Positions 55,824 through 60,476 of a DNA stretch of 64,000 nucleotides are shown here, piece by piece (position 1 is the first letter of the stretch; each line of letters starts with the position of its first letter). This DNA comes from Nitriliruptoraceae bacterium (GTDB taxonomy: Bacteria > Actinomycetota > Nitriliruptoria > Nitriliruptorales > Nitriliruptoraceae). A program made the position numbers and the translations under genes. The notes below the pieces were generated by a model. The model saw only the letters and a program-made list of their open reading frames with translations, was not told where the DNA came from and ran no database searches. Location of the stretch: the NCBI GenBank assembly GCA_018401275.1, contig JAGYKW010000001.1:124001-188000 (forward strand). Direction: 5' to 3'.

Positions 55824-57128
55824 TCAGGCGTTGCGTTGCGCCATCGGCACGAAGTCACGGGCCCCGGAGCCCACGAACAGCTGGAGCGGGCGCACGATCG
55901 ACTGCTCCTCGTCGAGGACGTTCTCCTGCCAGTGGGCGAGCCAGCCGGGGATGCGGCCCATCGCGAAGAGCACGGGGAACATCGAGACGGGGAAGCCCAT
56001 CGCCTGGTAGATGATGCCGGAGTAGAAGTCGACGTTCGGGTAGAGCTTGCGGGAGATGAAGTACTCGTCCTCGAGGGCGATGCGCTCCAGCTCCAGTGCG
56101 ATCTCGAGCAGCGGGTTGGTGCCCGTGACCTCGAACACGTCGTAGGCGAGCTTACGGATGATCGTCGCCCGCGGGTCGTAGTTCTTGTAGACGCGGTGAC
56201 CGAAGCCCATGAGGCGGTAGTCACCGTTCTTCGCGCGGGCGACGTACTCGGGGACCCGCGAGACGTCACCGATCTCGGTGAGCATGCGCAGGACGGCCTC
56301 GTTCGCACCACCGTGCAGCGGCCCGTAGAGCGCGGCTGCCGCACCGGCCGCAGCCACGTACGGGTCGGCCTGCGAGGAGCCGATGGTGCGCATCGTCGTG
56401 GTCGAGCAGTTCTGCTCGTGGTCGGCGTGAAGGATGAGGAGGATGTCCATCGCACGCTCGAGCACCGGGTGCGGTTCGTACTTGAGCTCGGTCGTGCGCC
56501 ACATCATGTTGAGGAAGTTGCCTGCGAACGAGAGGTCGTTGTCGGGGTAGGCGTAGCGCATCCCGATGGAGTGACGGAACGCGAACGCAGCGAGCGTGGG
56601 GAACTTGGCGACGAGCCGCATGATCTGCAGGTCGCGGTTGCTGGACTCCTTGAGCCCCTTCGCCTCGGGGTAGAACGTCGACAGCGCGGCGACGGTGGAG
56701 ACGAGGATGCCCATCGGGTGCGCGTCGTGGTGGAAGCCGTCGATGAACTTCTTCACGTTCTCGTGGATGAAGGTGTGGTGGGTGACGTCGTGGACCCACT
56801 GCGCGTGCTGCTGCTCGTTCGGGAGCTCGCCGTTGAGGATGAGGTAGGAGACCTCGAGGAACGAGGACTTCTCCGCGAGCTGCTCGATGGGATAGCCGCG
56901 GTAGCGGAGGATCCCGGCGTCGCCGTCGATGTAGGTGATGGTGCTGCGGCACGCGGCGGTGTTCTTCAGCCCCGGGTCGTAGGTCATGAGGCCGAAGTCG
57001 TCGTCGCCGGTCCGGATCTGGCGCAGGGCCATCGCATTGATCGCGCCGTCGGCGATGGGGATCTCGTAGCGCTGGCCCGTCCGGTTGTCGGTGACGGTGA
57101 GCGTCTGCGCGGTCGTGTCGGCGGTCAT
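55824..57128 (-). CDS. gltA: Citrate synthase
   Basis: 434 residues, the large hexameric (type II) form with an N-terminal beta domain (NRTGQRYEIPIADGAINAMALRQI). Condenses acetyl-CoA and oxaloacetate. Catalytic residues lie in LHGGANEAV (His), GFGHRVYKNYDPR (His) and NVDFYSG (Asp). ATG 57128 fits the family N-terminus. Its promoter appears to lie in a long inverted repeat at 57184-57231. Confidence 0.97.
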   Translation of the reverse strand: MTADTTAQTLTVTDNRTGQRYEIPIADGAINAMALRQIRTGDDDFGLMTYDPGLKNTAACRSTITYIDGDAGILRYRGYPIEQLAEKSSFLEVSYLILNGELPNEQQHAQWVHDVTHHTFIHENVKKFIDGFHHDAHPMGILVSTVAALSTFYPEAKGLKESSNRDLQIMRLVAKFPTLAAFAFRHSIGMRYAYPDNDLSFAGNFLNMMWRTTELKYEPHPVLERAMDILLILHADHEQNCSTTTMRTIGSSQADPYVAAAGAAAALYGPLHGGANEAVLRMLTEIGDVSRVPEYVARAKNGDYRLMGFGHRVYKNYDPRATIIRKLAYDVFEVTGTNPLLEIALELERIALEDEYFISRKLYPNVDFYSGIIYQAMGFPVSMFPVLFAMGRIPGWLAHWQENVLDEEQSIVRPLQLFVGSGARDFVPMAQRNA

Positions 57129-57320: not shown

Positions 57321-57863
57321 ATGTCCAGCACACTCCCCGGCGCCGGCACCTGGGTGTTCGACACCTCGCACTCCAGCGTCGAGTTCGTCGCCCGTCACCT
57401 CGTCATCTCCAAGGTCCGCGGTGGCTTCGGCACCTTCTCCGGCTCGGTCACCGTCGCCGACCCGGTCGCCGACTCCGCCGTCGAGGTCAGCATCGACGCC
57501 GCCTCGTTCTCCTCGGGCGACGAGAACCGCGACGCGCACGTGCGCGGCGAGGACTTCCTCGATGTCGAGCGCTTCCCGACCCTGACCTTCAAGGGTGCGG
57601 GTCCACGCCAGAGCGGCACCGGCTGGGTGCTCCCCGGGGAGCTCACCGTCCGTGACGTCACGCGTCCGGTCGAGCTCGAGGTCGAGGCGCTCGGCACCAT
57701 CGCCGACCCGTGGGGCAACCAGAAGGCCGCCTTCAGCGCGACCACGGAGATCGATCGGGAGGAGTTCGGCTTGACGTGGAACGCGGCGCTCGAGGCCGGT
57801 GGCGTGCTCGTCGGCGCCAAGGTCCGCATCGAGATCGACGTCCAGCTCGTCCGCGAGGGCTGA
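57321..57863 (+). CDS. YceI family protein (cytosolic)
   Basis: 180 residues, a YceI lipocalin-like barrel without signal peptide: GTWVFDTSHSSVEFVARHLVISKVRGGFGTFSG, SSGDENRDAHVRGEDFLDVERFPTLTFKG, and LTVRDVTRPVELEVEALG. Members bind isoprenoid or fatty ligands and are often stress-induced. ATG 57321 has AGGA seven bases upstream. It converges with a marR gene, a common actinobacterial pairing in which MarR controls yceI. Confidence 0.94.
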   Translation: MSSTLPGAGTWVFDTSHSSVEFVARHLVISKVRGGFGTFSGSVTVADPVADSAVEVSIDAASFSSGDENRDAHVRGEDFLDVERFPTLTFKGAGPRQSGTGWVLPGELTVRDVTRPVELEVEALGTIADPWGNQKAAFSATTEIDREEFGLTWNAALEAGGVLVGAKVRIEIDVQLVREG

Positions 57864-57919: not shown

Positions 57920-58444
57920 TCAGCCGCCGGCTCGGTCCGTCCCTTCGGACCCGGCCGGCGGCCGTGCGTTGTCGGCGACGCGGGAGAGTGCCCGGGCCAG
58001 CACCTCGGTCTCCTCGGTGGTGAGGACGTCGGCGAACCACTGCTGCACGCCCCGCAGGTGCGTGGGGTAGGTGCGGCGCAGCGTCTCGAGCCCCTGGTCG
58101 GTGAGCAGCGCGAACATGCCGCGCCCGTCCTCGGTGCAGCGTGCCCGTGCGACGAGGCCCGCGCGGACCATCCGGTCGACCAGTCGCGTGACGCCGCTCT
58201 GTGACAGCAGGACGCGGTCGGCGAGGTCCTGCATGCGCAGCCGGTGCTCGTCGGCCTCGCTGAGCTGCACCAGCACGTCGTACCAGGTCATGGGGAGCTC
58301 GACCTCCTCGAGCAGCTCCTTGCTGAGCCGCTCCAGGACCCGTGAGTGCGCCTCGATGAAGCCGCGCCAGGCCGTCATCCCGGTCGTGTCAAGACCGGTC
58401 CGCACTGCGGTCCGCCGCGTGGGGGTCGAGGGCTCATCCGTCAT
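57920..58444 (-). CDS. MarR family transcriptional regulator
   Basis: 174 residues. Winged-helix domain about 45-135 (LPMTWYDVLVQLSEADEHRLRMQDLADRVLLSQSGVTRLVDRMVRAGLVAR; GRGMFALLTDQGLE). Binds DNA as a dimer and is usually released by small aromatic or oxidant ligands. Probable target: the TTGC-N4-GCAA site at yceI. ATG 58444 has GGAGG nine bases upstream. Its 3' end contains a hairpin (57923-57962, GCCGCCGG/CCGGCGGC arms) that may also end the yceI transcript. Confidence 0.93.
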   Translation of the reverse strand: MTDEPSTPTRRTAVRTGLDTTGMTAWRGFIEAHSRVLERLSKELLEEVELPMTWYDVLVQLSEADEHRLRMQDLADRVLLSQSGVTRLVDRMVRAGLVARARCTEDGRGMFALLTDQGLETLRRTYPTHLRGVQQWFADVLTTEETEVLARALSRVADNARPPAGSEGTDRAGG

Positions 58445-58552: not shown

Positions 58553-58582
58553 GCGGAAGCCGCCCCGAGGGGCGGCTTCCGC
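58553..58582. terminator. Strong hairpin downstream of the histone gene
   Basis: Arms GCGGAAGCCGCCCC and GGGGCGGCTTCCGC pair perfectly over 14 positions with a minimal loop. It starts 41 bases after the stop of the histone-like gene on the minus strand. Confidence 0.8.
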
Positions 58583-58623: not shown

Positions 58624-58800
58624 TCAGAGGTCGTAGGGACGCAGGGTTCCGCGGCCGTTGCTCTTCGCGCGGGCAGCCGCGTCCTTGAGCATCGCGTGGA
58701 CCTTGTCGTTGAGTGCGTCGACGACGTTCGAGTCGGTGCGGAGGTCGAGGGCCTTGATGGCCTCACGGACCTTGCTCTGGACGATGATGGAGTCCGCCAT
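58624..58800 (-). CDS. Bacterial histone (single histone fold, DUF1931/HBb-like)
   Basis: 58 residues that make up one histone fold and nothing else: a short first helix (SKVREAIKAL), a long middle helix (NVVDALNDKVHAMLKDAAARAKSNG), the loop-2 signature RGTLRPYDL (R-x-T-L-x-x-x-D-L, as in archaeal histones R-K-T-I-K-A-E-D-I), and almost no third helix. A truncated third helix is typical of bacterial histones such as Bdellovibrio Bd0055. It would form dimers and bind DNA. ATG 58800 has GAGGT about nine bases upstream. It is monocistronic with its own strong terminator. Confidence 0.82.
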   Translation of the reverse strand: MADSIIVQSKVREAIKALDLRTDSNVVDALNDKVHAMLKDAAARAKSNGRGTLRPYDL

Positions 58801-59078
58801 TGGTTCTACCTCTCGTGTGGGGGATCCCGGTGCGGGATCGCTCGGGCCGTACGAAGAGGACCCTAGGGCCCCTCTCAGGGCGTTCGCGAGCAACCTCGAC
58901 GTTCCGGCCCCCCTGAGCGTGCGCTCTGCGCTCGAAATGGCGCGAGAACGCGCGCTGCATGGAGAATCGGGCTCCTCGGGGCTCCTCGAGCCGTTCCGGG
59001 CGGGTCCTGATGGTCCGCTCGGAGGCCGGTCCCCGAACCGCGCGCAGACGCACCGCAGCACCGCTCAGGAGCACGCCG

Positions 59079-60476
59079 ATGCCCTCCCGCTCAGGCACGT
59101 CGATCGTGCTCTTCACGCGTGATCTGCGCGTCCACGACCATCCCGCGCTGGTCGCCGCGGCCGGCTCGCGACGCATGCTCGCCGTGTTCGTGCTCGACGA
59201 CACGATCCTCTCCCGCCCGTACGCGGCGCCCAACCGGCTGCGCATCCTGATCGACAGCCTCACCGACCTGCGCCGTGCCCTGCGCGACCTCGGCAGCGAG
59301 CTCGTCATCACCCGCGGACGGCCGGCCGACGTGGTCCGCGACCTGGTGCGACGCCACGGGGTCGACGCCATCCACTGCTCGGCGGACGTGTCCGCGTTCG
59401 CCCGTCGGCGCGAGGCGGCCCTCGCCGCCATCGCTGCGGAGGCCGGAGCGACGTTCACCGCCCATCCGGGCGTCATGCTCGTCGACCCTGCGCTCGTGCG
59501 CGCGACCGGCGGCGGGCACTTCAAGGTCTTCACGCCGTACTGGCGCCGGTGGTCGCAGGTCACCCCGCGCCCGGTGCTCGGGGTCCCCGACCTCCCGCCC
59601 CCGCCCGACGACGTCGATCCGGGTGCGCTGCCGACCCTCGGCGAGCTGACCGGTGACGCGGCGGCGACCGCTGCCCCGCTGCTCGCCCCGGGGGGTGAGG
59701 TCGCGGCGCGGGAGCGCCTCGCCTGGTGGATGGACGGTCCCATCGAGGACTACGCGGACGGGCGCAACCGCATGGCCGAGGACGCCACGAGCCGCCTGTC
59801 CGTCCCGCTGCATCTGGGGTGCCTGTCGGTCACCGAGGTCGCCGCAGGCCTCGCGCCGCGCCGCGCCGGCCACGAGGCGTTCCTGCAGGAGCTGTGCTGG
59901 CGCGACTTCAACCACCAGCTGCTCGACGCGCGGCCCGACCTCGCCGTCACCGACGTGCGCACGAAGGACGACCGCTGGCGTGACGCGCCCGACGAGCTCA
60001 CCGCGTGGCAGGAGGGACGCACCGGGTATCCGGTCGTCGACGCGGGGATGCGCCAGCTGGTCGCGGAGGGCTGGATGCACAACCGGGCCCGCATGGTCAC
60101 CGCATCGTTCCTCACGAAGCACCTCTACATCGACTGGCGGCATGGCGCCCGCTTCTTCATGCACCACCTCGCGGACGGCGACCTCGCGAACAACTTCGCG
60201 CAGTGGCAGTGGACGGCGGGGACGGGCACGGACTCGCGGCCCAACCGCATGTTCAACCCGGTCATCCAGGGGGAGCGTTACGACCCGTCCGGCGCGTACG
60301 TGCGGCGCTGGGTGTCTGAGCTCGCCGACGTCGCCGGGAAGGCCGTCCACCAGCCGCGCACGGACGGTGCTGCTGCCGCCTCGCTGTTCGCCGAGGGCAC
60401 CTATCCCGCGCCGATGGTCGACCACCGGGAGGCGCGAGAGCGCTTCCTCAGCGCACGCGGTGCGCTCGAGGACTGA
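59079..60476 (+). CDS. phrB: Deoxyribodipyrimidine photolyase (class I CPD type)
   Basis: 465 residues. Light-driven repair of cyclobutane pyrimidine dimers. N-terminal antenna domain ([19 protein letters not shown]), FAD domain with [81 protein letters not shown] and [24 protein letters not shown] 59079 has AGGAG eight bases upstream. No LexA box is seen. A dut gene follows 28 bases after the stop but has its own promoter. Confidence 0.95.

Follow-up and report, generated by a model that had tools for sequence, protein, structure and literature searches.

An FtF (alpha3) histone in Nitriliruptoria genomes that lack HU

Among bacterial chromatin proteins HU has the widest distribution and is the usual packager of DNA; histones are rare in bacteria. 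The locus described here raises the question of what a 58-residue protein with the appearance of a histone is, and what it may do, in an actinobacterium. The host is an uncultured member of the class Nitriliruptoria (Actinomycetota), represented by a 1.73-Mb draft genome in 39 contigs that is 96% complete. The window, by which we mean the whole stretch of 64,000 nucleotides that was analysed, has a GC content of 72%. Its nearest named relatives are uncultured Nitriliruptoraceae, with a histone 98% identical, other Nitriliruptorales MAGs and the cultured Salsipaludibacter albus AS10; histone-bearing named relatives are placed by NCBI in the class Nitriliruptoria, phylum Actinomycetota. The high-GC actinobacterial background first proposed from the sequence is thus borne out.

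The histone gene and its neighbours

The coordinates that the initial annotation assigned to the gene are exact (Table 1), but the coding strand is minus, and the plus strand of this interval encodes nothing resembling a histone. The reading frame comprises 58 codons followed by TGA, and its translation is MADSIIVQSKVREAIKALDLRTDSNVVDALNDKVHAMLKDAAARAKSNGRGTLRPYDL. The choice of start codon is supported by the orthologues, nearly all of which share the first residue and have an AAGGAG-like site before it (AAGGAG or AGGAGG at the ribosome-binding position in most of them). The protein carries 10 lysines and arginines against 8 acidic residues, giving a pI of 9.3 and a small net charge, a point that speaks against a general DNA-packaging role. 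The codon adaptation index (CAI) of 0.84 is near that of ribosomal proteins and is exceeded by none of the 46 window genes, although for a gene of 58 codons this is weak evidence (p 0.024 against synonymous draws, with 134 of 1481 equal-length segments as high).

The gene had also been credited with its own terminator. A very stable GC hairpin (folding z -4.8) does lie downstream of the stop codon. It lacks a U tract, however, and is absent from the list of a consensus terminator scan, so that a terminator role is no more than plausible.

The order histone-MarR-citrate synthase is conserved across the family in about 20 loci. This conservation would suit a factor of minor or local importance, such as a transcription co-regulator linked to the adjacent MarR or citrate synthase genes, with the nucleoid organised by something else. 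However, about 1 kb separates histone and MarR gene in most relatives and the strong hairpin intervenes here, so that the two form no obvious operon. We return to this reading below, with the distribution of other chromatin proteins.

Table 1. Features of the histone locus (positions in the window) and related histone loci in other genomes
Feature	Position	Strand	Evidence and remarks
FtF (alpha3) histone gene, 58 aa	58624..58800	minus	translation, PDB match, AF2 model, Foldseek, orthologues
Histone start and stop	ATG at 58800, TGA at 58624-58626	minus	open reading frame
Histone ribosome-binding region	58801..58820	minus	gagaggtagaacca-ATG
GC hairpin, 13 bp perfect	58553..58582	minus	3' of histone stop, between histone and MarR gene
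MarR-family regulator	57920..58444	minus	Pfam; conserved downstream neighbour of histone across family
Citrate synthase	55824..57128	minus	Pfam; second conserved downstream neighbour
YceI-like protein	57321..57863	plus	Pfam; found between the MarR and citrate synthase genes in only some relatives
DNA photolyase	58959..60476	plus	Pfam; divergent upstream neighbour, conserved in minority of loci
FtF-FtF doublet, one open frame	L035:5001-5363 (G031:C15:7465-7827)		neighbouring family
Second, tailed FtF histone	L032, L033, L034, L036-L041, L043-L045, L047		

Fold, diagnostic residues and class membership

The AlphaFold2 (AF2) single-chain model (mean pLDDT 90) has helices at residues 8-17, 26-47 and 55-57, that is, the single histone fold with a long central helix and almost no third helix that had been described from the sequence. 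The best sequence match in the PDB was HLp, an FtF histone of Leptospira (phmmer 5.9e-10), with weaker matches to the archaeal FtF histone HTkC (6.3e-5) and to HBb of Bdellovibrio (0.01), and a family profile searched against solved structures ranked the three alike (2.7e-16, 1.1e-13 and 7e-7). In Foldseek comparisons the model superposed on HLp with an rmsd of 0.8 Å (TM 0.92/0.95), on HTkC at 1.0 Å and on HBb at 1.1-1.4 Å (TM 0.82-0.89); superposition on eukaryotic core histones was poor. Profile libraries contributed little: NCBIfam returned nothing, PHROGs nothing meaningful, and the two Pfam searches that had been recommended gave no match to PF00808 and a weak one to DUF1931 (PF09123). 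The latter profile has 138 positions and spans two fused folds, of which only 35 residues were matched, at 16.1 bits against a cut-off of 21.8.

What defines FtF histones is a third helix that is truncated, the tetramer residues R48 and N52 in the published profile, the motif RxTxxxxD and a lysine in helix 1 (PMC11390915). In HLp, crystal structures identify R49, S52, N53 and R55 as tetramer residues, D62 as part of the RD clamp, and K15, K17, K21, T27 and T57 among the DNA contacts (PMC12701072). In an ungapped alignment these two sets correspond to R44, S47, N48, R50 and D57, and to K10, R12, K16, T22 and T52, respectively. Residues R44, N48, R50, T52 and D57 did not vary among 22 relatives, distant paralogues among them, nor when Myxococcota and archaeal relatives were aligned; K10, the helix-1 lysine, was nearly invariant. 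Furthermore, the modelled helices agree with the FtF pattern of a third helix cut to 3-4 residues and a shortened second helix, and the tetramer residues R44, N48 and R50 are accompanied by the motif R50-x-T52-xxxx-D57. Archaeal nucleosomal histones have a third helix of about 10 residues and match PF00808, unlike the one-turn helix found here, and DUF1931 pseudodimers have two fused folds where the present protein has one.

The comparison with Bd0055 that the initial annotation had recommended deserves separate mention. An HBb-like protein would be a DNA-bending dimer that neither forms tetramers nor wraps DNA; in favour of this reading stand the good superposition on HBb and membership of the same alpha3 superfamily. 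The sequence match to HBb is nevertheless much weaker than that to HLp, and the residues equivalent to R44 and N48, which are absent in bacterial dimers (PMC11390915), are invariant here. We consider the HBb-like reading unlikely and place the protein in the tetrameric FtF branch with HLp and HTkC. Consequently, residues and fold together fit the FtF group and fail to fit bacterial dimers, nucleosomal histones and DUF1931 pseudodimers, which confirms the 58-residue protein as a true bacterial FtF alpha3 histone.

Distribution of the histone, HU and other nucleoid proteins

We surveyed 66 Nitriliruptoria genomes, 35 from the host's family, 1 from another family of the order and 30 from other families of the class. 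The histone was present in 31 of the 35 family genomes and in the single genome from the other family of the order, and in none of the 30 remaining genomes; the four family genomes that lack it are 61-88% complete. Among 396 Actinomycetota genomes it occurred nowhere outside this order, since a marginal match in one genome (G118) lies within a larger protein that is unrelated. Between close relatives dN is well below dS (6 synonymous changes and 1 non-synonymous between the host and locus L051). Orthologues across the family and this excess of synonymous change together indicate that the gene is no product of chance; it is under purifying selection, and its distribution and conserved gene order mark it as old and vertically inherited. 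What had been seen as a stand-alone copy meriting attention is indeed a single-fold protein, but as a syntenic gene of the whole family it is not an isolated curiosity.

Could the gene be a recent acquisition, or a contaminant of a metagenome bin? The draft state of the genome allows for it, histones have a patchy distribution in bacteria and are in some cases contaminants (PMC10627809), and haloarchaeal plasmids hold relatives. On the other side, the gene is embedded in a contig of 714 kb and has no match in phage or viral collections, and its synteny recurs in many assemblies made independently, in single-contig genomes and in the cultured S. albus. This reading is already contradicted and may be set aside as extremely improbable. 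A phage origin, in particular, was rejected when IMG/VR and INPHARED returned nothing. The plasmid relatives comprise 53 records, the named ones haloarchaeal, with FtF histone genes of about 40-45% identity annotated as DUF1931; in one case (L114) the gene adjoins that of a TATA-binding protein. With 54 rows and 58 columns, the histone alignment is too short for its phylogeny to show which lineage was the donor or how the paralogues are ordered.

For this lineage, the taxonomic distribution of HU and Lsr2 contradicts the initial supposition that genomes of this kind ordinarily depend on HU and Lsr2-type proteins. Neither HU (PF00216) nor Lsr2 (PF11774) was found in the host genome. In the class survey HU occurred in 0 of 32 histone-bearing genomes and in 27 of the 30 genomes of other families, all 27 of which lack the histone, so that the two proteins are mutually exclusive across the class; Lsr2 was found in none of the 66, HU-bearing ones included. 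Lowering the threshold to E<=10 revealed no credible HU in any histone-bearing family genome, and none was found in S. albus. The only family genome with HU (G061), which has no histone, carries it on a 3.6-kb contig (G061:C218, L101) of 44% GC in a lineage of 71-74% GC, and we therefore regard this HU as likely contamination. Neither HU nor histone turned up in three genomes, G012, G017 and G020, which belong to the HU-bearing families. Small nucleoid proteins were not simply missed, since actinobacterial IHF, which served as a positive control, was recovered in 57 of the 66 genomes, the host's among them.

Note however that the exclusion represents in effect one evolutionary event and not 32. 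Across the phylum, HU was found in 253 of the 396 sampled genomes, and only 18 of the 143 without it are histone-bearers; HU loss, being common where there is no histone, does not require one. About a third of sampled Actinomycetota thus lack PF00216 HU, mostly without having any histone. Beyond the phylum, FtF-bearing Myxococcota and Peregrinibacteria keep HU (8 of 8), which makes the exclusion lineage-specific. Direct replacement at the HU locus was considered and rejected, as the genes around HU in the sister families show no synteny with those at the histone locus.

These data bear on the local factor introduced above, for which the retention of actinobacterial IHF and the existence of other HU-less actinobacteria living without any histone both speak. 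In addition to the spacing from MarR, what weighs against it is the invariance of the FtF residues predicted to serve sequence-independent binding, and the fact that in Leptospira and haloarchaea the genes for FtF histones rank with the most strongly expressed (PMC11390915). We hold a minor or local role to be rather unlikely, and regard a general role for the histone as the better account.

A second FtF histone occurs in at least 13 relatives; it has a core about 43-57% identical and an N-terminal tail of 45-79 residues, composed of 25-40% lysine and 33-39% alanine, with AKKTAAKK repeats (Table 1). The tail bears a weak likeness, below cut-off, to HC2, an H1-like protein of chlamydiae, which is probably due to composition. 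HU proteins of the sister families are short and have no lysine tail, so that the tail is not an obvious graft from a local HU. In one genome of the neighbouring family (G031) two FtF folds stand in a single chain, and this doublet, in contrast to the singlets, scores above the cut-off of DUF1931. Neither tailed histone nor doublet was found in the searched genomes of the window's genus.

Proposed function and comparison with known systems

By analogy with HLp, two 58-residue chains would pair in a handshake dimer, and a pair of such dimers, joined through R44, S47, N48 and R50, would make up a homotetramer in the shape of a torus. DNA would wrap this tetramer by way of helix 1 (K10, R12 and K16), loop 1 and, in loop 2, T52. 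Since HLp wraps about 60 bp (PMC12701072), a similar length may be wrapped here, presumably independently of sequence. Leptospira, which has no HU, contains its FtF histone in very large amounts and apparently cannot do without it (PMC10627809, PMC12701072), and homology suggests that the actinobacterial counterpart may be abundant too. We consider it probable that the protein is a DNA-wrapping tetramer and general, perhaps the main, DNA compactor that stepped into the role of HU and works alongside actinobacterial IHF, which was kept. We also lean, with less assurance, towards a wider scenario in which the order replaced HU with an archaeal-type FtF histone and built a two-histone chromatin of a tail-less core and an H1/HC2-like tailed protein, with one doublet lineage, and in which the window's own small-genome genus makes do with just the tail-less histone.

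The FtF family itself is already known, as is the loss of HU alongside an FtF histone in Leptospira. The main bacterial holders of FtF histones in the literature are Spirochaetota, Planctomycetota, Bdellovibrionota and Myxococcota (PMC11390915, PMC10627809). In their main texts, neither these papers nor the others searched name Actinomycetota or Nitriliruptoria as histone holders, although UniProt-wide surveys may hold such sequences unremarked. Leptospira was the only comparable histone-for-HU case that we found in the papers searched, and both the proposed actinobacterial replacement of HU and the tailed paralogue appear to be undescribed. The carriers are salt- and water-dwelling actinobacteria, and they offer a natural experiment in the swap of a chromatin system, one bracketed by HU-bearing sister families within a single class. 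Cultured S. albus, and probably also Nitriliruptor and Egicoccus, would allow one to ask whether a histone can do the job of HU and what changes when it does. The tailed paralogue, moreover, adds a bacterial parallel to core-plus-linker-like chromatin.

Among known systems, HLp of Leptospira perolatii (PDB 9QT0-9QT2, PMC12701072) is a close counterpart: it is a stand-alone single fold, shares the tetramer and DNA-contact residues, and comes from a genus without HU (PMC12701072), which makes the Nitriliruptoria order at least the second lineage to pair HU absence with an FtF histone. The two differ in sequence (45% identity in the structural alignment), in the basic N-terminal tail that the 58-residue histone lacks, in neighbourhood (the HLp gene adjoins SMC/MAP) and in host, here an actinobacterium that keeps actinobacterial IHF. 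HTkC of Thermococcus and the haloarchaeal FtF histones (PDB 9F2C, PMC11390915) are likewise tail-less, of similar length and bearers of RxTxxxxD, but they are 33-45% identical and belong to archaeal hosts, in which HTkC sits beside nucleosomal histones. In a scan of named genomes, FtF histones of Myxococcota (Deltaproteobacteria) were the closest bacterial relatives outside the order (about 50% identity), although their host genomes keep HU. HBb/Bd0055, finally, shares the truncated alpha3 histone fold, but it is a far weaker match and lacks the FtF tetramer residues that the Nitriliruptoria histone has in common with HLp.
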